The notes beneath the pieces are model-generated. The model was not told the origin of the DNA and did not search any database. It saw only the letters and a list, made by a program, of their open reading frames with translations. A DNA stretch of 64,000 bases, taken from contig JAJZJL010000005.1 of NCBI GenBank assembly GCA_021810145.1, positions 1-64,000 on the forward strand, in the 5' to 3' direction. Shown here one piece after another: positions 6,465-37,728 of this stretch. Source of the DNA: Planctomycetota bacterium. GTDB lineage: Bacteria; Planctomycetota; Phycisphaerae; WQYP01. Made by a program: the position numbers and the translations under genes. Numbering within the stretch: position 1 is the first letter of the stretch; each line of letters starts with the position of its first letter.

Positions 6465-9400
6465 TTATTTTTTCGCCTTCGGCCACAACGACAGCGGCGG
6501 CAACGCACGGGAGAATACCATCTCCAGTGTCATGGTACGCAGTTTCTTAAACTGATCCAGCATGTGCAGATGCACAAGCCAGGTCTTGCCGTCCCTGGTT
6601 GTGCCGTTATACCGAACCAGAAGTTTCAGTGCTGCCCAGGGGCCGGTGAAGGCCAGACTCTGCGACGGCTTGGTTCCGGCGACGGCGGGATCGGTCTCAT
6701 AGAAATTAAGCTTGAGCACCTGTCCTGATTTTGCGGGTATTGTCAGTGTTCCCAGATTATCATCCGCCAGGGAACGAAAACTTGCGGTTCCCAAGCGCTG
6801 ACCGGCCTGGTTAATGGTTAAATACGGCCAGATGATCTGGACGGTGTTATCCGACTGATCCTGTTTGATGGCTCTGGTTATCAGGAGCTTGCAGCGCAGC
6901 GGATTCTGGCCGGTAACGCCCAGAATAGCGGCGAGAATCTGGCGAATCGCCGCTACGGTCTGCCGTGAATAGCCAAAATGCCAGTACGACACATTGCCTT
7001 GAAGAATTCGAAGCTGCCGGTTGACCTGCGAGTCCGGGGTGAGAATCTCATTGCTGGAAACAACGGACTTCGGCAACGCTTCGAAATGCCTGGATAGCGC
7101 ACGGATGTCCGCGGGCGACCACTGGTGCTGGAAACGCTGATCCGCGGTTGCGGAAATAAACAAAGGAAAGAACGGTTTGGCCTGAATGCCGGCGAGAATG
7201 GCGTTCGCCTGTTGCTGGCTTTTCTGAGCCAGCGTTCTCAAGCCGGTAAGTGTCAGGGACTTGACATATTGTGATGCGAAATTCGGATTTACCGAGTTGC
7301 TGAGAATATAACGATGGTAAAGGGTGTCCGGTGTTTCAGCCAGCAGTTGATTGCGGGCGGTATCGGGATTACCGCTTAATTGCGTCCACCGATTAAGCCG
7401 ATGGCGGGTGGAGCGAGCAAAGAGCGGCACATTCAATAAACTGATCCCAGTATGGATATTTGCCTGCGCAGAGGCAACCTCCGGTGTCTGTGCCGTGGAA
7501 GTGGGAACTGCGGCCAGAGCCTTCGAAACGCGATTGCCGTAGCTTTGCAGCGCCAGAAACAGTTGATCAACCTGAACGCCCTGCAATTGCTGCAGATAGG
7601 TTTTCCAACTGTTGTTCGGGACGGCTATGGTCAATCCATCGGTCAGGGCGGAAAGCCAATACTGAAAATAGGCTCGGCGATACAGATTCCATGCGGCGGC
7701 TGAGGACTGATATTGTGCCAGCAGGGTCGTGGCTCCAAGAATATGAACGGTGCTTTGCGATGTGCCCGTCGCCTGCCGGAGCAAATGTCCAATTTCATAC
7801 CAGCCGCCCAGCAAAGTTCCGGCTCCCTGCGGGTTAAAACGCGGATCAAACGGTTTGCCTGCTCCAGAAGTAAATAAGATCATCGGTTTGCCGACGGCCG
7901 CGGCCTGCCCGGTGCTGACCTGCTGCGCCACAGCCTGTTCAATGGCTGTGGCATTGGCAAAGGAATGGGAAACGCACAGATGAATCATCGCGTTGATTCG
8001 ATATGCCTCAATCGCCTGAACCGCTTTAACGGCGGCTTGAGTGGCGGCTTGATTGTATGCGGCGGCGGCATTTGGCTCCGCGGTTTTCAAGGTGCCGGCC
8101 GTATGGTTAATAACGGACAAGGTCCGTTGCAAGCGGTGATTAAAGGCAAGTAAAAAAGCTTTGGCATCGGTCACGGATGTTATCGATGTGGGATTCGAGA
8201 TCAGATTGTCAACCGCGGCGTACATGATTTGTCGCAGGCTCACCTGTCGGTGGGCACCGGCCCGGGCCAGAAATATCTGATCCATGGCGGCAACCTGGGA
8301 CTGATCGGTCGAACCGAAAGGCGACTTCTCATCGGCGATTTCATGCAGTAATTCAGCACGCGCCGAAGCCAGCAGAGCCATGCTCTTTTTCAAAACGCCT
8401 TTGGGAACGGACGCTTTACCCAGGAGAACCGATGAAATGAAATTCCCTGCCGCGCCGGATTTGGCATTCGAGGTGTTGCCGGCGGTAATCCATGCCGTCT
8501 GCTGTTTGAGGCGATTGTAAAGTTCCTGACGATGATGCAGCAACTGCTGGGCATCGGCTAAATAAGCCCCGGCGAAAGTGGCATGGGATCCCAGCGCGGA
8601 ATAATTGAGCCTTATTTTTTGCGCCGATGCGGATAGCGCTGTCAGCAATCCGCTGACTTTTTGATAAGCCGCATTTCCCGCCCGCACATTGTTACCGGCC
8701 TGATATTCCTTAGCCCAGCGCATGAGAGCGGTTTCCGAATTCTGATAATTCTGCAATGCTGTTTTCAGAGCCAGCAGACGCTGCAAAGCCTGGTTGCCCG
8801 TTCCTACCGCACGGTTCCATCCATTAAGCACACTGGCCATGCCATGGTGTATCGCCGCCGCAAAATCCACTGATTGAATCAATTGCAGTGATTTGGGCGG
8901 CCATCGGCGGCCGGAATTGTAAAGACTGCCGAGTATGGCATTGGTGGAATCTCCCTGATAGGTTTGATACGACTTAAATTCGGTGGCAGGGAGAATATAA
9001 GCCAGCAGCGCGTCGAAATGCTTCAGGCTGGCTTTACGGCCGAGTGCCGAATCCGGTCCAATTTGATAGCTGGCTTGCGCGATAGCGAGAAATTCCAAAA
9101 GGGCGTCGGTGCGTTTATTGAGTTCCGGCAATGTCAGGGATTGATCAGAAAGCGGGGCCACGGCAAGACGCGCTTCGGCCGCACGGATGACCGGCTCAAG
9201 GACCTGTTGATCGTATATTGTCAAAAACGCCCGACGCTGTTGTGCGTTAACGGTGCCGCTAAGGAATGAAACGGGTTTGAATATCCAGGGCACGGTCAAC
9301 GGTTTGCTGACGAGTTCAAAGCCCTGTTGATAGAAATTTGCCAGCGAATGGCCCAGAATTTTATTGGTATGTCCCTGATAGACATATTGTGGCACACCGA

Positions 9401-10916
9401 TGGAATTATCCTTCGGCACGATAATCGCCATGAACTGCGGACTTGATGAGGTAAATACTTTGGCGGCGGCCTGCCAATACTGGCGTGGGGTTCCGACACT
9501 GTTCTTCAATTCAAAAAAGGCGTAAAACGTGCTGGCGAGAAGAAGAATAACTGCGGCAAATCCGGCGGCCAGAACGGCCACCTTGCGGCGCCGTTGCTGC
9601 TGCATGGCATTGCCGGCCCGGGTAACCAGACCGCGTTCTTTAAAGACCTTCTGCAAAAACAGATCACGGAGGAAGTACGCCCGATCTCGCCGCCACACAC
9701 CGCTTGCCGGCAAGGCATCGATGGACACACCCAGGGCCTGCGCGAGGTCCGCATCCAGAGCCTTGCCTTCGGACATGGAACTCGTGAAGTAAATGCCGCG
9801 CAGAAAAAGGGGCTTGGCCGACCATTCTCCCGCGACAAAAATCGTTTCCAGATATTGCCGCAGGCGCGGGGCAATTTTCAGCAGTGTTTCGGGAAAGGCG
9901 AAAAGCGCATCAACCTGATCCATGCGATTATGCGATGGATCTTCGGTGTTGACCGGATCGGCCAGCAGTCGCGCGCGGCGGTGCACAAGCCGGTCGTGAA
10001 CCTGCCGAAGATGGCTTTCCACCGCATCCATATTAAAAGGTTCATCCAGGGCGGCGGGATTGGACCATCCCATAATCTGATGCTGCAATTGCGGATCGGT
10101 CAGATCGTCAAAAAACTGACTGAATCCGGTGAGATAATCGGATTTTGTAATCAGCACAAATACCGGGAATCGCACGCCCAGCGTGCGTTGGATCATGTCC
10201 AGTTGCTGGGCGATTTTCCCGGCATTTCGGGCGATGATTTCGCTGGAATCCTTGAGCAGGCTGTCCGCCGGTATCACCAGCAACATGCCGTTGATGGGGC
10301 AATTGGGGCGATGCGTGCGCAGCAGTTTGAGAAATTCCTGCCACTCGCTGGTACTGCCGGGTGCGACTTCCTCAAACATCAGCCGCCCGGCGGTATCAAG
10401 AATAATGGCATGATTGGTAAACCACCAGTTCATATTGATCGTGCCGCCGGAGCCTTGCAGTTGGTCCTGCAGTCCGGGAGGAAAGCCGATGGCCGAGTGG
10501 CGAATCGCTTCGGTTTTGCCGGATCCCGGTTGACCCACCAGGGCGTACCAGGGCAGAGAGTACAAGTCTTTGCCGGCGGCGTGAAATTTTTCCACACCCG
10601 CGGCAAAAACCCGGCGCAATGAATCAAGGTCCGCCAGCTTTTTAGCTCCGCTGAGCTGTTGTGGTGCCGCTCCGGCGTTGCCCGCCAGGCTCTGTTCCAT
10701 GGGACGCGACTTGCGTTTTTGCCACCAGCCCACCAGCAGGCGAAAAATCACAAATGCAACAACCGCAATGATCACCAGCAACACAAGCAGCAGCAACAAC
10801 TGCCAATGCCCGCCAATGGCCAACGCACCCGCGCCAACCACACCGGCTGTACCGCCAGCGGTTGCGGCCAGTTTGCCGTTGGGGGACAGGTTGCCGAGAA
10901 AATTAAAAGGATTCAT
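6465..10916 (-). CDS. tssM: Type VI secretion membrane protein TssM/IcmF
   Basis: 1483 aa; N-terminal TM helices, Walker A (VGQPGSGKTEAIRHS), IcmF-type LDTAGRLMFEE, long periplasmic region. Confidence 0.92.
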   Translation of the reverse strand: MNPFNFLGNLSPNGKLAATAGGTAGVVGAGALAIGGHWQLLLLLVLLVIIAVVAFVIFRLLVGWWQKRKSRPMEQSLAGNAGAAPQQLSGAKKLADLDSLRRVFAAGVEKFHAAGKDLYSLPWYALVGQPGSGKTEAIRHSAIGFPPGLQDQLQGSGGTINMNWWFTNHAIILDTAGRLMFEEVAPGSTSEWQEFLKLLRTHRPNCPINGMLLVIPADSLLKDSSEIIARNAGKIAQQLDMIQRTLGVRFPVFVLITKSDYLTGFSQFFDDLTDPQLQHQIMGWSNPAALDEPFNMDAVESHLRQVHDRLVHRRARLLADPVNTEDPSHNRMDQVDALFAFPETLLKIAPRLRQYLETIFVAGEWSAKPLFLRGIYFTSSMSEGKALDADLAQALGVSIDALPASGVWRRDRAYFLRDLFLQKVFKERGLVTRAGNAMQQQRRRKVAVLAAGFAAVILLLASTFYAFFELKNSVGTPRQYWQAAAKVFTSSSPQFMAIIVPKDNSIGVPQYVYQGHTNKILGHSLANFYQQGFELVSKPLTVPWIFKPVSFLSGTVNAQQRRAFLTIYDQQVLEPVIRAAEARLAVAPLSDQSLTLPELNKRTDALLEFLAIAQASYQIGPDSALGRKASLKHFDALLAYILPATEFKSYQTYQGDSTNAILGSLYNSGRRWPPKSLQLIQSVDFAAAIHHGMASVLNGWNRAVGTGNQALQRLLALKTALQNYQNSETALMRWAKEYQAGNNVRAGNAAYQKVSGLLTALSASAQKIRLNYSALGSHATFAGAYLADAQQLLHHRQELYNRLKQQTAWITAGNTSNAKSGAAGNFISSVLLGKASVPKGVLKKSMALLASARAELLHEIADEKSPFGSTDQSQVAAMDQIFLARAGAHRQVSLRQIMYAAVDNLISNPTSITSVTDAKAFLLAFNHRLQRTLSVINHTAGTLKTAEPNAAAAYNQAATQAAVKAVQAIEAYRINAMIHLCVSHSFANATAIEQAVAQQVSTGQAAAVGKPMILFTSGAGKPFDPRFNPQGAGTLLGGWYEIGHLLRQATGTSQSTVHILGATTLLAQYQSSAAAWNLYRRAYFQYWLSALTDGLTIAVPNNSWKTYLQQLQGVQVDQLFLALQSYGNRVSKALAAVPTSTAQTPEVASAQANIHTGISLLNVPLFARSTRHRLNRWTQLSGNPDTARNQLLAETPDTLYHRYILSNSVNPNFASQYVKSLTLTGLRTLAQKSQQQANAILAGIQAKPFFPLFISATADQRFQHQWSPADIRALSRHFEALPKSVVSSNEILTPDSQVNRQLRILQGNVSYWHFGYSRQTVAAIRQILAAILGVTGQNPLRCKLLITRAIKQDQSDNTVQIIWPYLTINQAGQRLGTASFRSLADDNLGTLTIPAKSGQVLKLNFYETDPAVAGTKPSQSLAFTGPWAALKLLVRYNGTTRDGKTWLVHLHMLDQFKKLRTMTLEMVFSRALPPLSLWPKAKK

Positions 10917-10978
10917 ATCTTATACCCGCAGCTTTACCTTCAGTTTCAAACGTCCTGTATGCAATGACCGGGAGCCGG

Positions 10979-11650
10979 CTATTTGTGCAGGATCATCGTC
11001 AGAGCCTGATTCAATTGTGACACACTTCGATGGAACAGATAGAAATTGGCTATCAGAAGCGTGATAACGCATACCACCAGCACCACCGCAATTCCAACGA
11101 GTTTTACCCCGGGCGGTTCAATCAAATCCGCGGTGTTGACGTGCTCATAACTGTCCGGACAAATTTTGCGTGAATCGGAGTCTTGCGCGCCTGAATCGAT
11201 CCGCAACCGAATTTCACGCGATTTTTTCCGCAAAAATTCCGGTTGTCCGGAATACCAGCCGGTAAATCCCAGTCCCAGACAGGTATAGAATATCCCCAGG
11301 CGTTCCGTGGCGGCCGGGCTGGAATCTTTGAGTGTTTCTTCCAGCAGATCAAAAAACTTTTCATCGCCGCCCAGTTCGTTGCGGTCAAAAGCCAGCTCTT
11401 TCCATTTTTTGGAAATGTTGTATCCGCCCTCTTTGACCATGAAATCAGCGAAGAAAATCAGTGACAGTTCCATTTTCTCATACTGGCCGGCCAGGCCCGC
11501 CGCGGCTGTCGCTTTGGCCTTCATATCCGCCAGTAATCCCTTTATTTCCGCCCGCACGATTTCGGCATCCAGCAGACCTCCGCCGTGCGCCCACCGATTA
11601 AGCCGACAGATATATTGAAAAAAAGGTTCCGTAAGTTCTGTAAGCGTCAT
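10979..11650 (-). CDS. tssL: Type VI secretion protein TssL/DotU
   Basis: MTLTELTEPFFQYICRLNR..., DotU-like cytoplasmic domain and C-terminal TM; between tssM and tssK. Confidence 0.85.
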   Translation of the reverse strand: MTLTELTEPFFQYICRLNRWAHGGGLLDAEIVRAEIKGLLADMKAKATAAAGLAGQYEKMELSLIFFADFMVKEGGYNISKKWKELAFDRNELGGDEKFFDLLEETLKDSSPAATERLGIFYTCLGLGFTGWYSGQPEFLRKKSREIRLRIDSGAQDSDSRKICPDSYEHVNTADLIEPPGVKLVGIAVVLVVCVITLLIANFYLFHRSVSQLNQALTMILHK

Positions 11651-11699
11651 GATACGGGTTCCTGCCAAAAACTCCTGACCAACCGGGGAAATTGTACCA

Positions 11700-13061
11700 T
11701 CACCCCGGAACGGTCATAAACAAAGTCAGAGCAAAATCGCTGTTTTCCATACCCAGCCAGCGGATGGCCATGGACTTTTCTTCTTTAATCCGATCCCACA
11801 TGCGCTGACTGTCTTGACGGTTTATACGGAAATAATGCTGTCCCGACTGGGCCGGTAACTCCACGGGCGGATAGCGCTCTTCCTGGAGTTTTAAGCCAAA
11901 AATGCGTTTCCCCACCATGGTTGGGGCCGCCACTTGAAATTGATCCTGATTTTCCACGAGTTTGGCCAGGGCAATGGGGTCTTCCCGTGAACGCACGGCG
12001 ATAAAATATTCGTTGGGTTGTGTGAATTGTTCCTCTGTAAGCGCGGCGACAAACATATTCTGTTCCGATTTGAAATCGACTTTCATAAACCGCGCCGTAA
12101 CCGCGCCGCGCAACAGTCCCCGGATTTTATCCGTCAGATCCTGGAAGCAGACCGCGGGTTTATCATGATCGTAAGCGGGGGCGGCCAACTGCTGATCTTT
12201 ATCGGGGTACATGGAACCGAGTTCGGCCAGCAGCTCGCGCAATTCCAGATACATATCAAAGGGTGTGAGGTTGTTGACTTTCAACAGGCTGGAAATTCGG
12301 GCGCTGGAGCGGCTGATTGTGCGTAACCGCAGGCACTGTTCAAATTGCGCCCCGCGCATGGTATCAACACTGAAGCCGCCGCGCGTTACCTGCAGCGCTA
12401 ATTCGGTCCGGCTGGCTTCCAACTGATTGGCAAATTCGCGGAGCATGTCCCGCAGGACGGGAGAGCCTTTTACCAGCATGGATGGGGGAATGAAATTGGG
12501 ATCCTGTCGCACGGCACCAACCTCTTCGCCCACGCCCCGTACCACGCGCAGGACGGGAAGAACTTCCATATCCGTGGTGTCATCGCCCTCAACCAGAAAT
12601 CGCGCGTTAATGCGCCGCACGGCAATGGGGCGCGGATTTTGCCCGGTATTTTCGTCAGCTTGCTCTATTTCCGTGACCCGGTACATGCTTTTTACCATCC
12701 ACTGGTCTTTTGCATCACCGGTTACGATGTTGGCTCGTTCCGGACTCCACAGCGGAACCGCCAGAAATACAGTCATGGATCCGGTACGTGATTCCAGGGC
12801 CTGTTTAATGCTTAACGTCGGAATATCCGCGTTTTCAGGAAAGCGCACCTCCGTACCGCTTGGCATAATGGCATGAAGATGATCAAAGCGCACCATCTGA
12901 TTTTTCAACGACTCCGCGGAAACCTGCGATTCAATCAGGCCGTAGGGATGGCTGAATGCCAGGGACCGCACCGCCCCGAGGCGCGACAGAATATTCCGCT
13001 GCATGATCTGTAAGTGGTGCTGTTGTAGAAACAAGCCTTCATTGAAGTGAACTGCATCCAT
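11700..13061 (-). CDS. tssK: Type VI secretion baseplate protein TssK
   Basis: N-terminus VHFNEGLFLQQHHLQIMQR and full-length TssK-like organisation. Confidence 0.88.
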   Translation of the reverse strand: MDAVHFNEGLFLQQHHLQIMQRNILSRLGAVRSLAFSHPYGLIESQVSAESLKNQMVRFDHLHAIMPSGTEVRFPENADIPTLSIKQALESRTGSMTVFLAVPLWSPERANIVTGDAKDQWMVKSMYRVTEIEQADENTGQNPRPIAVRRINARFLVEGDDTTDMEVLPVLRVVRGVGEEVGAVRQDPNFIPPSMLVKGSPVLRDMLREFANQLEASRTELALQVTRGGFSVDTMRGAQFEQCLRLRTISRSSARISSLLKVNNLTPFDMYLELRELLAELGSMYPDKDQQLAAPAYDHDKPAVCFQDLTDKIRGLLRGAVTARFMKVDFKSEQNMFVAALTEEQFTQPNEYFIAVRSREDPIALAKLVENQDQFQVAAPTMVGKRIFGLKLQEERYPPVELPAQSGQHYFRINRQDSQRMWDRIKEEKSMAIRWLGMENSDFALTLFMTVPG

Positions 13062-26295: not shown

Positions 26296-27180
26296 CTACA
26301 TCAGTTTCTTTCCCATCAGCTTTTCCAGCACGCGTAACGGAGATTTCTCCGGATTTTTCATCGCTTCCACCGGCAGCAGATAGGTCTGCTCCAGTAAATA
26401 CTGCCCGGCATCCACCGCGTGCAGTACTTCATCGGTAAAGCACGTCCACGTGCAGTGAGGAGGAAACACAAACGGTATCTGAGGCGCGGAGTGCTGATAG
26501 CGATCATCCATTTTTCCCTGATCATGCAATTGCAGCATGTAATGATCGTACATCGTGCGCGGCGTACGGGTGATGCGCAGCATGTACATAAGGTCCCGGC
26601 TGCCCGGGAATGGTGCCTTAAGCCGCGGGACAAACTTTCCGGCAAAGTCGGCAAAGGGTTCGCCGATGCGCCAATCGCGGCCTTTACCTTCGGGGTTGAC
26701 GTTGCAGAAAATTCGGATGATTCGCTTGCCGCCTACGGGCCGAGCCGGGAATTGATCCGGGTGCAGCCGTGTATCATCTTTTGTCACTTTGCTGACCCGG
26801 CCCTTGATTTCGACGGGGCGGTAGCTGGTTCGCATGCGCAGCAGGGCGGCTTTGTATTGTGGAAAAAGTCCCTGCATGAGCGTCAGCGTGCTTTCGGAAT
26901 AGCGCTTTAATAATGCGGCCAATTCGTGTTGGGCGGTCTGGTCGCCTTCCATTCCCTGAATGCGGCCATTGCGATGGTCATAGCTGATATTTTTGGCGGC
27001 ACCATTGCTCCAGACCGGGGTAAGAAATTTCTGTTCTTCCGGGTTAAATTGGAAATCGAGCTTGGGCAGATAGACCACATTGCCCGATTCCATGGCCGCG
27101 GTGGCTCCATCTTGCTGTGCCGGGGTAAAAGGACCGTTCCATTGAGTTAAATCCACTGTATAAAGCCGATCGGTCATAGT
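26296..27180 (-). CDS. Kdo hydroxylase-like (2OG-Fe(II) dioxygenase) protein
   Basis: MRTSYRPVEIKGRVSKVTKDDTRLHPDQFPARPVGGKRIIRIFCNVNPEGKGRDWRIGEPF matches the remembered Kdo 3-hydroxylase family pattern. Confidence 0.7.
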   Translation of the reverse strand, partial: TMTDRLYTVDLTQWNGPFTPAQQDGATAAMESGNVVYLPKLDFQFNPEEQKFLTPVWSNGAAKNISYDHRNGRIQGMEGDQTAQHELAALLKRYSESTLTLMQGLFPQYKAALLRMRTSYRPVEIKGRVSKVTKDDTRLHPDQFPARPVGGKRIIRIFCNVNPEGKGRDWRIGEPFADFAGKFVPRLKAPFPGSRDLMYMLRITRTPRTMYDHYMLQLHDQGKMDDRYQHSAPQIPFVFPPHCTWTCFTDEVLHAVDAGQYLLEQTYLLPVEAMKNPEKSPLRVLEKLMGKKLM

Positions 27181-27493
27181 CTGCTCCGCATAACCGGCAA
27201 TCCTGCCGCGATTACCAATGGCCGATAGCATAACGTAGAAGTGGGCAAATATTCCACCAGCAACAGCGGCGAAGCCAGGGTGCTTGCCCATTGTTAGCGA
27301 GAATCGCCGGAGATTGTGGCTATTGACGTGCGATTTCGTGGTCATGGTGGCAAATGCGCGACTTCATCGGCCAGAGTTGGAATTGGGTTATACCATTGGG
27401 AAATCCCGCTCCCCTGACCGCTTATTTCCGAAGAGCAATGGCGTTGTGCTTGGCGGTACGAGCGGAACTTGGGGTTGGGATGCGGGGTAAATG

Positions 27494-28620: not shown

Positions 28621-29865
28621 TTAGAATGACATCATCTGTCCGCTGTTGTTCCGCCGATACGCCGATGGTGTCATTCCTATCATCCGCTTGAACATCACGT
28701 TAAATACCGTTTCACTGCGGAATCCCGATTCTTCGGCAATTTTCCACATGGGCTTATCCGATTCAATAATCAGTTGCCTCGCCCGATCCACATGCGCACG
28801 CCATATTTCATCCTGCAGTGTGGAGCGGGTTAAAGCTTTGAATCGCATTTCCAGGCTGCGCCGCGATACCAGCACCCGGGATAGCACATCATTAATGTGT
28901 ATTGGCTCATGGGCGTGGGCGCGAATAAACTTGTATGCCTCGGCCACATCGGGATCCTGATACGCTGTAACATCGGTGGATTCCCGTTGTACCACCGGCA
29001 GCGGCGCAATGAAAATTGGCTCCCGCGGCGCGGCCTTTCCCAGCATCAGATCATTAAGTGTTTGTGCCGCCTGTCTGGCCACGAGTCTACCATTGAGGGG
29101 AATACTGCTGAGCCGTGGCGTACTCATCATGCAGACCCATTGCGCGTTATCCACGCCGCACACGGCGATATCGTTTGGCACACCAAAGCCTTCTTCTTTG
29201 GCCATACGGATGGCTTCGTACGCAAAGCGATCCATACAGGTAAATAGCGCGATGGGCTTGGGAAGATTTTTCAGCCATTTTCGCAATTCAAGCTGCTGTT
29301 CCTCATTCTGGAACCGCCACCAGTCCGGCACGGTGTTATCATATAAATGTACGGAAAATCCGAGCTTTTTCAGCGTGGCAAAATAGCCCGCCCGGCGCAG
29401 GCGTTCCCAGGGAAATGTTGTCGCCTCACACATGCCGTAGTATGCAAACGTGCGAAACCCTTTGGACGCCAGATGCTCCGCAGCCTGCACGCCCACGACA
29501 TAATCATCGGGGATTACCTGGGCAAAAGGTGTATGGTCCTGAAAGTGAGGGGTGGCAACCACAGGTATTTTTGATTGTTCCAATGCGGTGAGTGTTTCCT
29601 GATCATCCCAATGGCCAATAATGGCTCCATCAATTCGCCCGGCGGCGATATCCTGCGGGCCGACCTCCCCCAATGTCGCAATCAGTGTGCGCCAGTTGCC
29701 AATTTCCGTGGCGAACCGGGCGATTTCCATGGCCACCTGTTCGCTGTATGTGCCGATTTCGCGGGATAAATATGCCACGCGCAGCTTGCCGCGGTTCGAG
29801 CGGCGTTTCTGGCCGCGGCCCGGCGGTTTGCCGGCGCGGCTTGTTTCTCGGTTATTTGTCTTCAT
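28621..29865 (-). CDS. XylR-like AraC-family transcriptional regulator (periplasmic-binding-like sensor + AraC HTH)
   Basis: N-terminal LacI/PBP-like domain and C-terminal AraC HTH (MWKIAEESGFRSETVFNVMFKRMIGMTPSAYRR). Confidence 0.88.
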   Translation of the reverse strand: MKTNNRETSRAGKPPGRGQKRRSNRGKLRVAYLSREIGTYSEQVAMEIARFATEIGNWRTLIATLGEVGPQDIAAGRIDGAIIGHWDDQETLTALEQSKIPVVATPHFQDHTPFAQVIPDDYVVGVQAAEHLASKGFRTFAYYGMCEATTFPWERLRRAGYFATLKKLGFSVHLYDNTVPDWWRFQNEEQQLELRKWLKNLPKPIALFTCMDRFAYEAIRMAKEEGFGVPNDIAVCGVDNAQWVCMMSTPRLSSIPLNGRLVARQAAQTLNDLMLGKAAPREPIFIAPLPVVQRESTDVTAYQDPDVAEAYKFIRAHAHEPIHINDVLSRVLVSRRSLEMRFKALTRSTLQDEIWRAHVDRARQLIIESDKPMWKIAEESGFRSETVFNVMFKRMIGMTPSAYRRNNSGQMMSF

Positions 29866-29907
29866 GTGCGGCATTGTACCGGCGGATTAGATTCGCGGCA
29901 CGGAATT

Positions 29908-29932: not shown

Positions 29933-30104
29933 TAACCATTCTTGTGGCGGATGTTTAGATGGTTATAGTTGAAACAATGAAGGGACGGCCTGGCTGGTAG
30001 CCTGAAGACAAGTTGGCTGTCCTGAGCTGGAGTTTAATTTACAGGTTCAATAGTACGTACCAATGTGCGTTCACAGTCTCTTTTTTTTAGAAAGGGAAGA
30101 CGTT

Positions 30105-31148
30105 ATGCCAGGTTCAACAAAGTATTGCCGTACCGGGCGTGGCTTCACGCTTATTGAGTTGCTCGTGGTAATATCCATCATCGCTCTGCTGATTGCGCTG
30201 TTGTTGCCCGCGCTGGCCAGGGCCAAAGCGTCCGCATTGACTGTCTCTTGCGGATCAAATCTGCGTCAACTTGGGCTGGTGGCTCAGATGTACGCCAACG
30301 ACAATCTGGGGATGCTGCCCTTTGCCGAGGGGCCTCCAGGCGGCCAGATTGGCGCACCGAGTAACGGCAATCTTACTGGTCCAACGCAGGCGGCGCTGGC
30401 CGGTGATGTATCGACATGGATGCTGCAGTTTCAGCCGTATCTGCAGTCGCAACCGCTCTCGCCACTTGCACAATACAATATGTGGCAGTGGCCGATTCCG
30501 TACCCGGGTTCCCCGGAAGGCTGGAGTGGGTTCTCCAAGGTGTTCATGTGCCCCGCAGCGTCAGTGTTGACCGGCGGTAATGCCTGGCCCGTACAGGGGC
30601 AAAACTCGTACCAGGCCAATGAGGAACTCTTTCCGTTGGCCCCGTATGTGCTTCCCAATTGGCCGGGTGAATCCGTTTACAAGCTGGCCAATCTGGGGGG
30701 ACGTGGCTCGCAAGTGGTAATGTTCACAGATGGCCTGCGCTCAAGAAATTCCAGTGGTTTGACCATCGGCCTCACCCAGCCAAGTGATTTCTGGGGAACC
30801 TTGCACGGGAACGGCATTACCGGTTTCTGGAACGGAACGACCAATGTCATTAACTACTTTGGTGATCCGATCAGCGCAACGGCAGCTAACCCCAGTGCCA
30901 ACCCACAGCAGGGAATTACTCCCGGTCCTGATCAATCGGGTCCGGCCGACACGTGGCAGACAACCTACTGGCTCCGCTGGCGGCACGGGTACGGTAATAC
31001 GCACTCTGTGAACTGTGTGTTCGGCGATGACCACGTCGAGACTTTCTCGTACACCGCCAGCGTGCCTGGTGGAAGCAATCCCAGTAAACCTCCAATCAGC
31101 AATCTGCCAACCGAAGATTTCATGGCGACGGCACCGGGTGGCCAATAA
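30105..31148 (+). CDS. DUF1559 prepilin-type N-terminal cleavage/methylation protein
   Basis: [32 protein letters not shown] and C-terminal H...[13 protein letters not shown]; start 30105 with upstream AAAGGGAAGA. Confidence 0.92.
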
Positions 31149-31377
31149 GATAATTTTCTGAATTCCCCACGGGTCGAGGCGGCCCGTGGGCTTGCGGTGA
31201 TTCGGCGGCTGCGAGAGGGGACGCGAACGGCATTCTTTTGTCGCCGCATCTGCGAATATTTCTGGTAATGATCGTGGTGCCCTTGGCACGGAAGGATTCA
31301 ATGTCGTGTCCTTTTGCCACAGGGTGGAGCGCATGGGCCGGCTCGTAACAGGCTCGCACATTAGAAGGAGAGTTTCA

Positions 31378-32301
31378 ATGAAAACTCAACTGCACAGTAC
31401 GGGACGATTTCTGGGAATCGGAATGGCGGCGGCATCGGCAACACTGCTGGTATCTGCCGGGAACCATGCTCAGGCTGCACCATACAGCGGAACAAACGCC
31501 ATCAATTTTGCGCTTTATTGGGGTAACCCATCCGGAGCTCAAGCGTATACCGGCTACTCCGGGACCGGCGCGGATACAACTGATAGCGGAACGACTTGGA
31601 ACAACCTTAATATCTACAGCACGCAGGGGGCAAATAATTATGGATACGTCAGCGGGGGTATTAGTGCCGGACCTTCCCCGGCAGTCACGTCTGGTACCAG
31701 CGTGGCGTCCACCATTTATGACTCAGGGGGCACGGCAACAGACGTATCGGTCAATGTTGCACCCAGCTCGACCAACTCTGGGGGAGCCTCATCGGGCTAC
31801 GCAAATTTCCCTGGGCCGACCGCGGTTGTAAAGGCCATGTTTTACTCAAAGTCCGGTTCGAGCGGAGCTTACCCGGTGGATATTTCTGGCCTCGCCTCAG
31901 ATGGACAATACGACCTTTACCTCTTTGGTGTCGACGACTTCTCGGGAACTGGTTCCGGATTTTCGTTAGCGGCCGCGAACCAGATCGCAGGTGATTCAGC
32001 TTACGCATCAACTTCGGGGATCGCGAGCAGTTGGGCCACCGCCGGTGATATTTTTAATCCGGCAGACCCTGCCGCCACCAAGGGCACGGTTTGGACGGTA
32101 CTGCACGCTCAGGCGGACGCAAATGGGAATCTCACATTCTATTTCCAGCCCCTTACCGGCGGCGGGGCCGGTTACCTGAATGCCTTCCAGTTGCAACCCG
32201 TTGCGGCGACTCCTGAGCCTGCCACTGTGGCTCTGCTTGGTGTTGCGGCCGGTGCGGGCTTATTGCTGACCTCGCGGCGAAAGCGGGCTGTAAATTCCTG
32301 A
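31378..32301 (+). CDS. PEP-CTERM sorting-domain protein
   Basis: Signal peptide and C-terminus TPEPATVALLGVAAGAGLLLTSRRKRAVNS. Confidence 0.92.
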   Translation: MKTQLHSTGRFLGIGMAAASATLLVSAGNHAQAAPYSGTNAINFALYWGNPSGAQAYTGYSGTGADTTDSGTTWNNLNIYSTQGANNYGYVSGGISAGPSPAVTSGTSVASTIYDSGGTATDVSVNVAPSSTNSGGASSGYANFPGPTAVVKAMFYSKSGSSGAYPVDISGLASDGQYDLYLFGVDDFSGTGSGFSLAAANQIAGDSAYASTSGIASSWATAGDIFNPADPAATKGTVWTVLHAQADANGNLTFYFQPLTGGGAGYLNAFQLQPVAATPEPATVALLGVAAGAGLLLTSRRKRAVNS

Positions 32302-32582
32302 CGTGTGTCTCAATCCACCTTCCTGAAGCCGGCCGCCTGATTTAATAGAAAGGGCGGCCGGCTTTGTCCAAAGAAACTTTGCTCTTGGGGGTTTACTTGC
32401 GGTTAAGCGGATCGATTTGGGACTTGCTGACGCAGCGGGGACCGGCTTGGGGAATTCGTGATATTACAAACGGCCAATCCCATGATGGCGCTTTTCCGGC
32501 AGCACCGCAGCCGTGCTGCGCGCAAATGTACCGGACCTCCGGCATTGTCAGGCACGTTATCCGTGATGGTATCAGGAAAATA

Positions 32583-33728
32583 ATGCAAAAGTTGTCTCAT
32601 CGGCGTTGCGGCAAGTTGCCGGCCACACGGTATGCGCGCATGGCCCAACGGGCTTTTATGGCATTGATCTGGTCATTACCGGGATTAGTACCGTTTGCCA
32701 CCACGCTGCCCGCCAGTGCGCAGATACGGGTCGTAGGTTCGCGGCGCGTCCTGCCCGCACCGGTTGATTCAGGTGCCATGTCCCTGCACACTTCGGGCAG
32801 ACAACTGCTTTACGCCAATGGTAAACTCGCCGTTCTCCACGGTGTTTCCATGGCCGCAAAACCCGGTACACCGAACTGGACGCATATTCGGCAATCTGTT
32901 GCGGTAGCCGTTAAAACATGGCACAGCCAACTCATTGTTCTGCCACTTTCACAGGATGCGTGGTTTGGAAAATGGCCGCAATCACACCACGGCGGAGCGG
33001 AATATCGTCATACGGTTGATGCGCTCGTGCAATATTGTGCCGCGCATCATGCATATATAAACTTGACCCTGCAATGGACGGATATGGGGCGTTGGGGAAA
33101 ATATCCCGGCCGACATCGCATGCCGGATGGCAACTCGGTGCGATTCTGGCGCTCTGTGGCGGGGCGCTATAAGCATTATTCCAATGTGCTGCTGGGATTG
33201 TTTTCATCGCCCAATGGGGTGGATTGGCATACCTGGCTTTATGGCGGCGTATGCACGGAAGAATCCGCCAGCCGCGTTATCGCCTATCGTGCGGCCGGCA
33301 TGCAGGAACTGTACAACACGGTCCGGGCGGCGGGCGCGGATAATGTTGTGGTAGTGCCCGGATGCCGTAATGGTTATGACCTTTTTGGCGTGCTCCATGG
33401 CTTTGCCATTCGCGGGCATAATGTGGCATACGCCACCAGGGTGTATCCATGGATGAAGAACTGGAATGTTAACTTTATACTGCCCGCCAGGCGTGTACCG
33501 GTGCTGGTGGCACAATGGGGTGAATCATCAAAACAATTGACGTATGACCGCCGGCTTGGTCACGTAATGATGGTAAATAGACTCAGTTGGGCAGCGGCCA
33601 ATTTTGGTATCGGTCCGCCCTGGCCGGCATTGCTTCAAGGTTGGAATTATAAGCCGACAAAACTTGGCGCAATCGTGAAAGCCGCCATGGCGTCAGCGGA
33701 TCGCGGGCATCAGGGGGACCGTCAATGA
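32583..33728 (+). CDS. GH5-fold protein with substituted catalytic residues (pseudo-glycosidase)
   Basis: Homologous along its length to the downstream GH5 but NEP is FSSPNG, DEFG is AQWG, and active-site His positions are Q/R; overlaps the next gene by ATGA. Confidence 0.75.
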   Translation: MQKLSHRRCGKLPATRYARMAQRAFMALIWSLPGLVPFATTLPASAQIRVVGSRRVLPAPVDSGAMSLHTSGRQLLYANGKLAVLHGVSMAAKPGTPNWTHIRQSVAVAVKTWHSQLIVLPLSQDAWFGKWPQSHHGGAEYRHTVDALVQYCAAHHAYINLTLQWTDMGRWGKYPGRHRMPDGNSVRFWRSVAGRYKHYSNVLLGLFSSPNGVDWHTWLYGGVCTEESASRVIAYRAAGMQELYNTVRAAGADNVVVVPGCRNGYDLFGVLHGFAIRGHNVAYATRVYPWMKNWNVNFILPARRVPVLVAQWGESSKQLTYDRRLGHVMMVNRLSWAAANFGIGPPWPALLQGWNYKPTKLGAIVKAAMASADRGHQGDRQ

Positions 33729-35035
33729 GAAGTTTTCGTGGCAAGCAGATAAACTCCGGCAGGCTCCGCCATGGCAGGTATGGCGTTGCCGTAATGGCCC
33801 CGATGCCAGCCGGCGCATTCATGTGCCGGTCCGGTCGCCGCCATGAACATCGTTGTGCTTCCCTGTTTGGCGTGCTCGGCCAGGGCTGTAGCCGTATCAG
33901 CGGCGAAGTATGTGCGGGTTGGCTGTCCCGGTTCGCCGGGGCGCCGGACGCATGTGGTATGTGCGTGGCCCTGGTATTGTTTGTTATGGGTGGCATTGCT
34001 GCGGCACCGGTGGGTGCGGCAACGGAAGCGTCTATTGTGACGTTGCCCTGTCCGTACGCCATTGCCGATATGCAATTGCATACGCTGGGCAATAAATTGC
34101 TGAATCAGCAGAATAAAATCGTGGTGCTCCATGGGGTGGACTTGCCGAGTCTGGAATGGATGAATCGAGGCGATCATATTCGACGATCGATGCGGGTGGC
34201 CATCATGCAATGGCACTGTCAGATCATCCGCATTCCCACATCGGTCAATCGTTGGTTCGGTCAGGCCCCGGGACAGAGTCATGGCGGGCGGATATATCGG
34301 CATATTGTGGATCAACTGGTCCGGATCGCGGCGCGGCATCATGTGTATGTGGTGCTGGATTTGCATTGGAATGATATGAACCGCACCGTGGCGGATATCG
34401 GGCAGCATCGTATGCCGGATCATACCTGTGCGCGCTATTGGCGGTCCGCAGCGCGACGATATATGGATTATCCAAATGTGTTTTATGACCTGTACAACGA
34501 GCCGCACGGAATAAGCTGGATCACCTGGCGCGACGGAGGCATTTGTACAGGTGAAACCAAAGCCACGGTGGTGACGTATCGGGCCGTTGGCATGCAGCGA
34601 CTCTATGATGTCGTCCGACACACCGGTGCCGACAATATTGTCATCATCGGCGGAATCAGTTGGGCCTATGACGAATTCGGCGTAACGCATGGTTATGCTA
34701 TCGCCGGGAAAAATATTGTGTATGATTGTCATGTATATCCATGGAAGTCGCACTGGAAGCATAACTTTGAAAGTGCGGCAAAACGCGTTCCGCTGATTTT
34801 TGACGAATTCGGCGGTACCGGGAAACAATTGACGTTTGGTAGAAAGGTTATCGCGTTTGCGGCGGCACATCATATCAGTTGGTGCAGTTGGTCGTTTCAT
34901 ACGCAGGCCGGGCCGGTACTTATAAAGAATTGGCACTATCAGCCGTCAAAATTTGGTGCGCTTATAAAGTCCGCGTTGCAATCAAGTGATGCGACGGGTC
35001 ATAAGGCTGCGACCGCGGATGGCACCGGAAAGTAG
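33725..35035 (+). CDS. GH5-family glycoside hydrolase (endo-mannanase/cellulase-like)
   Basis: VVLDLHWND, VFYDLYNEPHGISW (acid/base E), YDCHVYPW, PLIFDEFGG (nucleophile E). Confidence 0.85.
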   Translation: MRSFRGKQINSGRLRHGRYGVAVMAPMPAGAFMCRSGRRHEHRCASLFGVLGQGCSRISGEVCAGWLSRFAGAPDACGMCVALVLFVMGGIAAAPVGAATEASIVTLPCPYAIADMQLHTLGNKLLNQQNKIVVLHGVDLPSLEWMNRGDHIRRSMRVAIMQWHCQIIRIPTSVNRWFGQAPGQSHGGRIYRHIVDQLVRIAARHHVYVVLDLHWNDMNRTVADIGQHRMPDHTCARYWRSAARRYMDYPNVFYDLYNEPHGISWITWRDGGICTGETKATVVTYRAVGMQRLYDVVRHTGADNIVIIGGISWAYDEFGVTHGYAIAGKNIVYDCHVYPWKSHWKHNFESAAKRVPLIFDEFGGTGKQLTFGRKVIAFAAAHHISWCSWSFHTQAGPVLIKNWHYQPSKFGALIKSALQSSDATGHKAATADGTGK

Positions 35036-35127
35036 TCGGACGGGTGATTTGGTTGATTCAAATGTCCGCAGCAACTTTGCTTATTGATCGTAGATCATTG
35101 TAAATCGTGAATGTACGGAGTCTCAAA

Positions 35128-37728
35128 ATGGGAAATAGCACCACGGATTCACAACCAGTAACCCGACGTCAGGTGTTGCAGGCGGCGGCGGGGGCCTCAG
35201 TGGCATTGGCTTTGACCGGGTGCAGCACGCCGGAGGGGCGGCCGGCCGCCACCGCGCCGGCTGAAGTTCCCGCGCCAGCCATGGCGGTGGATTTAACCGG
35301 CGATACGTGGACCATGCACGAAGATGGACAGGCCGACAAAATTGCCGCAATCGTTCCCGGTGCCACCTACACGGATCTGATGCGGGCCGGGAAAATTCCC
35401 AACCCCTATTATCGCGATGACAATGGCAAGGTGCAGTGGGTGGCGGAAAAAAACTGGATATATGAGCGCACTTTTGACGTTCCCGCGGAGATGCTCTCCA
35501 AACCCCACGTGGAACTCAAATGCCACGGGCTTGATACACTGGCTGCCATCTGGATCAATGACCGGGAAGTCGGCCGGACGGACAACATGTTCCGCGACTG
35601 GAGCTTTGATGTCCGCTCATATCTCAAGCCAGGCGGCAATACCATACGCATTAAATTTGATACGCTGACTCCCTATGTGGAAAGCAACCGGCAGGCATAC
35701 AAAGAAGCATACGGCATTGATCTAAGCGACGCCCGCAGTTGGGTGCGCAAGGCTCCGTATATGTGGGGATGGGATTGGTGCCGGGCGGTGCTCACACAGG
35801 GCATCTGGAAGCCCATTGAGATTCTTGCTTATGACGCGCGGATTACCGACCTGGGTATTCTGCAGCATCATGATGCGTCCGGTTCGGTGCATTTGAATAT
35901 CCAGACCACCGTTGCCGGGGCCAATTCCGGCGCGCAGGTGACCACGCGTGTGCTTTTCGGAGATCAGCTCATAGCCACCGCATCAGCGCCGGTGAAAAAT
36001 GGATTGGCGACATGTCACGTTGACGTTGCCAACCCAAAGCTGTGGTGGCCCAATGGAATGGGCGATCATCCGCTTTATGTGGTGGAATCGCGGTTGTATG
36101 AATCCGCCGGCAGCGTCGTGGAAGTGCTCGCGGCCGGGACACCCTCAACCGCCAAAGTCATTGACACCGTCCGGCGCCGCATCGGCCTGCGAAAAATTGA
36201 GGTTGTATCTCCCACCGGTGCGGTTGCCATGCATGTAAAAGTCAATGGCGTGCCGGTGTTTGTCAAAGGTGCGGACTGGATCCCCGCGGACAATATTCCC
36301 ACGCGCGTGACGCCGGAAACCCTTCGCTGGTATATGAAAAAGGCCATTGAATGTCATTTTAATTTTATCCGTCTGTGGGGTGGCGGCTATTACGAACAGG
36401 ATGAACTGTTTGATCTTTGCGACGAACTGGGCATCATGCTGCAGTTCGAGTTCAAATTCGCCAACGACACCTATCCGGTCAACGATCGCAAATGGATGGC
36501 CAACCTGCAGGCCGAATTGGATCAGCAGGTGCTGCGGTGCCGCAATCATCCATCGATTGTAATCTGGAGCGGCAACAATGAAATTCAGGATTTCAAGGGA
36601 TATTACCATCTGTTCCGCGATGTCATCGGCGGCACCGTGCACCGGTTGCTGCCGGGGGCCTTTTATGAAGTCGGCAGCGGTGCCGCCGGCAGCGGTGATA
36701 TTCACACCTGGGAGGTCTGGCATGCCATGGCACCATTTGAACAATTCCGAACGGTGGAAGGTTTTGTGACCGAATTTGGCATGCAGAGCTTTCCAGTACC
36801 CATGACGGTTGATGCCTATACCGATGCCGCCGATCGCCAGAGTGTCCATTCCCCGGTGATGCGCTATCATGAGCTTGACGGCAGCGGCCATGGCGTCGGC
36901 ATAATCATGCACTACACCAATATGTATTTTGGCAGATCACCGGAGAATTTCGACGATACGCTCTGGCTGACGCAAATTAATCAAGCGTATGGAATTCGTT
37001 ATGGTGTGGAGCACTGGCGACGCGATATGCCCCGCTCCATGGCGGCAACGATCTGGCAATACAACGACTGCTGGCCCGGTCCAACCTGGTCTATGACCGA
37101 TTACTATCGGCGGTTCAAAGCCATTCAATATCAAAGCAAACACTTCTTTGCGCCGATTCTCGTCAGCGGTATTCCTGATCCGACAACCGGTAAAGCGGAG
37201 TTGTATATCACCAGTGATCGGCAGAAAGATGTTTCAGGTGAATTGCGGTGGGTGGTAACCGATATGGCCGGTGCGGTGTTAAAGCAGGGTGAAATGCCGG
37301 TTCATATTCCCGCCCGTACCAGCCGCCTGGCCCACACGCTGAATCTGGCGGATCTTATCAGCAGCCACGGTGCGGGAAATCTGCTGATCTGGCCGGAAGT
37401 GCGCGTGGGCAGCCGGACGGTGGCGGAGAATGCTCTGTTTTTCGGGCGACCGGTGGAGCTTAAATTCCACAAGCCGCAGTTGGCGCTGCACGTCAGCGGC
37501 AGCGGACAACATTATGATCTGCGTATTGACGCCAATGCCCCGGCGTTGTGGGCGTTCGCCGATGTGAAAGATACCCCGGCGACTTATTCAGATAACTTTG
37601 TTGCCATCCGGCCCGGTCGCACCGCGGTTATTCATATTACGCTTGATGAGCCAATGTCGCCGGCAGATTTCCATCGCAAGCTGACGGTGCGCAGTATTTA
37701 TGATCTGGCACCGGATATGCGGGCCTGA
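35128..37728 (+). CDS. GH2 beta-mannosidase, Tat/lipoprotein-type signal
   Basis: TRRQVLQAAAGASVALALTGCS signal; RLWGGGYYEQDELFDLCDELGI; IWSGNNEIQ acid/base; FVTEFGMQSF nucleophile. Confidence 0.9.
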   Translation: MGNSTTDSQPVTRRQVLQAAAGASVALALTGCSTPEGRPAATAPAEVPAPAMAVDLTGDTWTMHEDGQADKIAAIVPGATYTDLMRAGKIPNPYYRDDNGKVQWVAEKNWIYERTFDVPAEMLSKPHVELKCHGLDTLAAIWINDREVGRTDNMFRDWSFDVRSYLKPGGNTIRIKFDTLTPYVESNRQAYKEAYGIDLSDARSWVRKAPYMWGWDWCRAVLTQGIWKPIEILAYDARITDLGILQHHDASGSVHLNIQTTVAGANSGAQVTTRVLFGDQLIATASAPVKNGLATCHVDVANPKLWWPNGMGDHPLYVVESRLYESAGSVVEVLAAGTPSTAKVIDTVRRRIGLRKIEVVSPTGAVAMHVKVNGVPVFVKGADWIPADNIPTRVTPETLRWYMKKAIECHFNFIRLWGGGYYEQDELFDLCDELGIMLQFEFKFANDTYPVNDRKWMANLQAELDQQVLRCRNHPSIVIWSGNNEIQDFKGYYHLFRDVIGGTVHRLLPGAFYEVGSGAAGSGDIHTWEVWHAMAPFEQFRTVEGFVTEFGMQSFPVPMTVDAYTDAADRQSVHSPVMRYHELDGSGHGVGIIMHYTNMYFGRSPENFDDTLWLTQINQAYGIRYGVEHWRRDMPRSMAATIWQYNDCWPGPTWSMTDYYRRFKAIQYQSKHFFAPILVSGIPDPTTGKAELYITSDRQKDVSGELRWVVTDMAGAVLKQGEMPVHIPARTSRLAHTLNLADLISSHGAGNLLIWPEVRVGSRTVAENALFFGRPVELKFHKPQLALHVSGSGQHYDLRIDANAPALWAFADVKDTPATYSDNFVAIRPGRTAVIHITLDEPMSPADFHRKLTVRSIYDLAPDMRA

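Follow-up and report, generated by a model that had tools for sequence, protein, structure and literature searches.

What a glycosidase without catalytic residues might contribute, when it is encoded immediately in front of its own intact paralogue, is the question raised by two overlapping GH5 genes in a 64,000-nucleotide stretch of planctomycete DNA (the window). To our knowledge, glycosidase pseudoenzymes are mostly isolated cases or eukaryotic binding proteins. The analysis described here points to the first gene product, A, being a secreted non-catalytic GH5 partner of the active second product, B, probably for (gluco)mannan, an account to which we give about an even chance of being right.

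The overlapping GH5 genes and their active sites

ORF A (positions 32583–33728, forward strand) encodes a secreted GH5-fold pseudo-glycosidase of 381 amino acids, composed of a signal peptide followed by one GH5 barrel, and neither the ORF translation nor a Pfam domain search revealed an extra binding, anchor or signalling domain in it. ORF B (33725–35035, forward strand) begins within an ATGA stop/start overlap (33725–33728, forward strand), and coordinates, frames and overlap were exactly those of the original prediction, which had been made from the sequence alone. The two proteins had also been described as GH5 paralogues, and this was borne out by a BLASTP alignment with 44% identity over 323 amino acids (E = 4e-99) and by matches to the Pfam Cellulase (GH5) family of 40.8 bits for A and 105.3 bits for B, against a gathering cutoff of 23.5. 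In alignments of B with solved GH5 endoglucanases, its NEP acid/base Glu and its strand-7 Glu are matched, and its closest solved relatives are GH5_26 β-glucanases. Under family-level annotation A is scored as 'Cellulase', and dead proteins are in this way counted among the enzymes.

The canonical GH5 active site consists of eight residues (Arg, His, Asn, Glu, His, Tyr, Glu and Trp). In a family alignment all eight were present in B, which thus has the residue complement of an active enzyme. In the window's A the same positions read V, Q, S, S, R, Y, Q and A, and seven of the eight are lost: R169, H214, N258, E259, H336, E361 and W389 of B correspond to V119, Q164, S208, S209, R286, Q311 and A339 of A, and Tyr338 of B, retained as Y288, is the sole canonical residue left. 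The replacement of one catalytic Glu by Ser and of the other by Gln, and the loss of both His, had been proposed at the outset and were recovered in this alignment, to which the lost Arg is an addition. The orthologue of A in genome G001 reads G/R/A/S/H/F/G/V, being the one in which the second canonical His is retained, and those in G007 and G002 each read G/Q/A/S/N/Y/Q/V. Both catalytic Glu are absent from all four A orthologues, which therefore lack the residues expected of an active enzyme, and A is predicted from its sequence to have no hydrolytic activity.

Other acidic residues at the catalytic positions would have counted against the original prediction; among the four A orthologues, no conserved acidic residue was found at either Glu position (S/S/S/S and Q/G/Q/Q). 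The +3 Glu of the VAQWGE motif was considered as an alternative nucleophile and rejected, as the remaining three orthologues have Gly there. It could be that A is an altered enzyme that attacks a different bond with other residues, for example the invariant Asp125, Asp167, Asp182, Asp214 or Asp266. Asp214 (GVDW) does not vary among the A orthologues, corresponds to Ser in B, and recurs in the first gene of a GH5 tandem pair in genome G012, and A has invariant motifs of its own (AAKPG and GPPWP). However, the remaining four Asp residues also occur in canonical relatives, strands 4 and 7 do not end in a conserved acidic residue and the pocket positions vary between the orthologues, and an altered enzyme is therefore considered very improbable.

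The homologue search covered about 880 genomes at the levels of family, class and phylum, together with an alignment-based scan of the whole genome collection; a protein-only scan of that collection with A alone gave no matches, whereas the alignment-based scan did. Outside the four A orthologues, both Glu are kept in every match from about 800 Planctomycetota genomes and 15 loci of the whole-collection scan that covers these columns, and their loss in A is therefore not noise. The Asn preceding the acid/base Glu is likewise kept in all of these homologues apart from the G012 pair. Among about 75 related matches the catalytic Glu pair was lost in none besides A, and only the G012 tandem pair was also non-canonical. 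Strong conservation among canonical outgroups was seen at 129 positions, of which 72 are retained by every A orthologue; the remaining 57 include the complete set of eight canonical positions (hypergeometric p = 0.001).

The G012 genes (genus g6; L047:6578–9044) form a separate GH5 tandem pair with an 8-nucleotide overlap, adjoining a GH92 gene and a LacI-type regulator. In both copies Asn is replaced by Ser and the first His by Arg or Gln, and both Glu are kept; AU tests of orthology gave p = 0.38 for A with the first G012 gene and p = 0.10 for B with the second. Two or three tandem copies of this GH5 with canonical catalytic residues were also observed in G149 (L143), G655 (L111/L126) and G648 (L113/L127). 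Tandem duplication of this GH5 is thus common in Planctomycetota, and loss of the catalytic Glu pair was seen in one genus only.

Conservation, age and loss of the pair

A search for the paired arrangement, which had been suggested as a check on the prediction, recovered the pair and its ATGA in four species. The pair is present in three other species of the genus, with A proteins 61–69% identical to that of the window. An A gene upstream of an intact B with the exact ATGA was found in G000, G001, G002 and G007, which are all the genomes of the genus in which that DNA is assembled (in G003, the contig ends at B), and A without B was not found in any genome searched. The overlap, from which co-translation had originally been proposed, is thus kept in identical form in all four species.

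Genomes G004, G005 and G006, from three further species of the genus, are without A and without about 315 codons of B, and a C-terminal remnant of B precedes the GH2 gene. The breakpoint is shared by G005 (L037:1–8900), G004 (L036) and G006 (L038), corresponds to window positions 34661–34676 and leaves a 109-codon remnant of B before GH2. The replacement DNA in G005 and G006 carries glycosidase and esterase genes, typed in G005 as two GH31 genes and the BD-FAE and GDSL families. Positions 1–127 of a contig end, L039 (G005:C66), correspond to window positions 34663–34789 with 100% identity over exactly 127 bp. Beyond them lies a GH31 cluster of similar kind, a pattern expected if the assembly graph branched at this site and a strain closely related to that of the window had the same replacement at the same point. 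A usual k-mer length for assemblers is 127, and the L039 join itself may be an assembly effect.

In three related genomes from two other genera (G024, G026 and G011), B and GH2 occur without A in an otherwise similar operon, so that B does not require A for its basic function. These three relatives with the live gene only provide a natural with/without comparison for the contribution of the pseudo-glycosidase.

In phylogenetic analysis, the A sequences formed a clade with 100/100 support, located outside a B clade that spans three genera (100/98). A recent duplication within the genus was rejected (AU p = 0.002), and this was unchanged when 21 active-site columns were removed. About 15 ancestral residues are kept in A and lost in B (e.g. 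Q124, D125, W171, G172 and N184), which argues against a long-branch artefact. Judged from the tree, all A sequences share a single origin that predates the genus. Because the B clade comprises three genera with the A clade outside it, and recent duplication is rejected, A is old and was lost, or never fixed, in genera g4 and g5.

Constraint on ORF A and its predicted structure

The frame of A is intact in all four species, as had been claimed for the window. The dN/dS values (NG86), which are approximate as dS is high for most pairs, were 0.138 for the least diverged pair of A genes (G007–G002, dS 0.71) and 0.17–0.23 for the other pairs, against 0.08–0.12 for B in the same four species (0.08–0.15 with G003 added) and 0.06–0.11 for the downstream GH2 gene. 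ORF A is constrained, about two-fold less than B. Neither the relaxed selection nor the frameshifts in relatives for which this check had been proposed were seen, and with values of 0.14–0.23 A was rejected as a decaying gene and its description as a pseudo-glycosidase is supported, and with it one part of the original interpretation. In four species, therefore, A displays the combination that defines a non-catalytic GH5 protein, with the catalytic residues lost and the protein kept under selection.

Within the core of A, 178 of 319 positions are invariant among the orthologues, compared to one of the eight canonical positions (Fisher p = 0.015), which locates the constraint on A outside the −1 pocket. 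Long invariant blocks outside the pocket are LPLSQDAWFGK, GVDWHTWLYGGVCT and GMQELYNTVRA, and 33 aromatics are invariant among the orthologues; the distal aromatics and surface motifs of A are retained, and the −1 pocket is not. One reading of the faster evolution of A, which proceeds at about twice the rate of B, is that the gene is a relic, its frame maintained solely so that translation of A can start that of B; through the ATGA overlap the translation of B may indeed depend on A. Amino-acid selection (dN/dS 0.14–0.23), the long invariant blocks and a confident fold nevertheless make a relic most improbable.

Structure prediction, also suggested as a check, gave confident GH5 (β/α)8 barrels for both proteins, nearest to GH5_26 glucanases. 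The AlphaFold2 model of A, built on an alignment of 20 natural sequences, had a pLDDT of 88.5 and a pTM of 0.90, and the AlphaFold model of B had values of 89.8 and 0.90. The best PDB matches of both models were CjCel5C and SdGluc5_26A, with GH5 structures matched at E of about 1e-18 or better, and the nearest solved structures include named GH5_26 enzymes at about 20% identity. By numbering, the altered residues map in the two models to the same strands or to positions directly following them. The GH5_26 enzymes (SdGluc5_26A, 5A8M; CjCel5C, 8BN7; Cel5A, 4HTY) were the best sequence and fold matches of B and the best fold matches of A, at about 18–22% identity in fold alignments, but their catalytic residues are absent from A.

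Possible role of ORF A, substrate and neighbouring genes

A role for A as a partner or binding subunit of B is favoured by its retained aromatics, by the blocks fixed elsewhere than in the pocket, by the conservation of the overlap and by the co-loss. The two proteins would be translated in step from one message via ATGA coupling, exported, and directed at the same β-1,4-linked (gluco)mannan-type polymer, which the β-mannosidase encoded by the next gene would finish. As the −1 catalytic pocket is abandoned, A probably relies on its surface and the distal subsites; it may be a binding or positioning subunit, or may join B in a hetero-oligomer and shape the cleft of B. Translational coupling, glycan binding, contact between A and B, and the substrate are all features that we infer. 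The loss of the −1 Trp and of polar pocket residues in A would weaken classical cleft binding. A dead copy kept by selection in several species suggests help to the live enzyme with its polysaccharide, not junk.

It is unlikely, but conceivable, that A and B are obligate partners in a heteromer, the dead barrel having taken the place of one subunit in an ancestral homo-oligomer and reshaping the cleft of its live counterpart; if true, this would be a two-subunit glycosidase with its specificity set by the pseudo-subunit. A quaternary structure study of SdGluc5_26A is reportedly relevant to oligomer-shaped clefts, but plays no part in the present argument.

Another interpretation is that A is a free-standing, lectin-like glycan-binding protein or sensor that does not touch B, the coupling serving only for co-expression. 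The distal barrel aromatics retained in A are in keeping with this, and the single non-catalytic GH5 with a characterised function that Aspeborg et al. name acts as a binding sensor (PMC3526467). However, A carries no additional domain for binding, anchoring or signalling and its −1 pocket varies among the orthologues, and such a free-standing role appears somewhat unlikely.

Non-catalytic GH5 proteins are known from GH5_30, the Xanthomonas CelXoB branch of GH5_1, GH5_8-related lipoproteins and Rsi24C-GH5 of C. thermocellum, the last being a cellulose-binding sensor (Aspeborg et al. 2012, PMC3526467). Like A, these have a GH5 barrel, lost catalytic residues, a long branch and a presumed new function. 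They comprise a fungal subfamily, modular proteins or lipoproteins, or a single sequence, whereas A, in a comparison made without their partner genes, is a stand-alone barrel whose gene overlaps that of its active paralogue and has been kept in several species. Chitinase-like YKL-39 and Klotho (PMC7828330) resemble A in the reuse of a glycosidase fold for binding or as a receptor, but are of other GH families and are not coupled bacterial operon partners. In the GH12 pair PsXLP1/PsXEG1 of Phytophthora sojae (PMC8960721), a secreted active glycosidase is likewise accompanied by a secreted inactive paralogue, although this pair is of another family and kingdom, and involves a decoy for a plant inhibitor and a C-terminal deletion in place of point replacement. 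By analogy with this case, in which the active enzyme is shielded by its inactive sister (PMC8960721), A could be a decoy that absorbs an inhibitor of B, with which it has a common fold and much common sequence; yet neither an inhibitor nor an arms race with a host is known for this environmental bacterium, and A is strongly diverged (44% identity) with fixed motifs of its own, so that a decoy is very improbable. No description of a conserved, overlapping and ancient GH5 pseudo/active pair was found in the open literature searched.

Returning to A as a partner of B, (gluco)mannan is the favoured target, based on the downstream β-mannosidase match and on the glucomannan activity within GH5_26 (PMC9860051). 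The enzymes of GH5_26 are β-1,4-glucanases, one of which, from a β-mannan locus, cuts glucomannan (PMC9860051). In contrast, the GH5 barrel itself is closest to β-glucanases. The conserved downstream gene (35107–37728, forward strand) encodes a GH2 protein with a Tat-like N-terminus and a lipobox-like LTGC, and matches β-mannosidases at E 6e-126.

Upstream of the pair, the conserved neighbours encode a PEP-CTERM-sorted protein (31306–32301, forward strand; found also in G024 and G011) and a prepilin-type N-methylation/DUF1559-like protein (30063–31148, forward strand). A divergent XylR-like LacI/AraC regulator gene (28621–29874, reverse strand) is located also upstream of the single GH5–GH2 pair of G024 and G011, where the PEP-CTERM, pilin-like and regulator genes all likewise precede B. 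A very stable hairpin rich in G+C (32325–32365, forward strand; −29.5 kcal/mol, z = −5.1) separates the PEP-CTERM gene from A and is a possible terminator or attenuator; it was not picked up in a consensus terminator scan, and no promoter match in a consensus scan exceeded those in shuffled sequence. Elsewhere in the window, type VI secretion genes (IcmF/TssM-like, DotU/TssL and VasE/TssK) are located at 6465–13061. A Kdo hydroxylase-family protein (PF11004, E 9e-104) is encoded at 26296–27345 adjoining a GT87 gene, which suggests lipopolysaccharide-type Kdo modification in a planctomycete.
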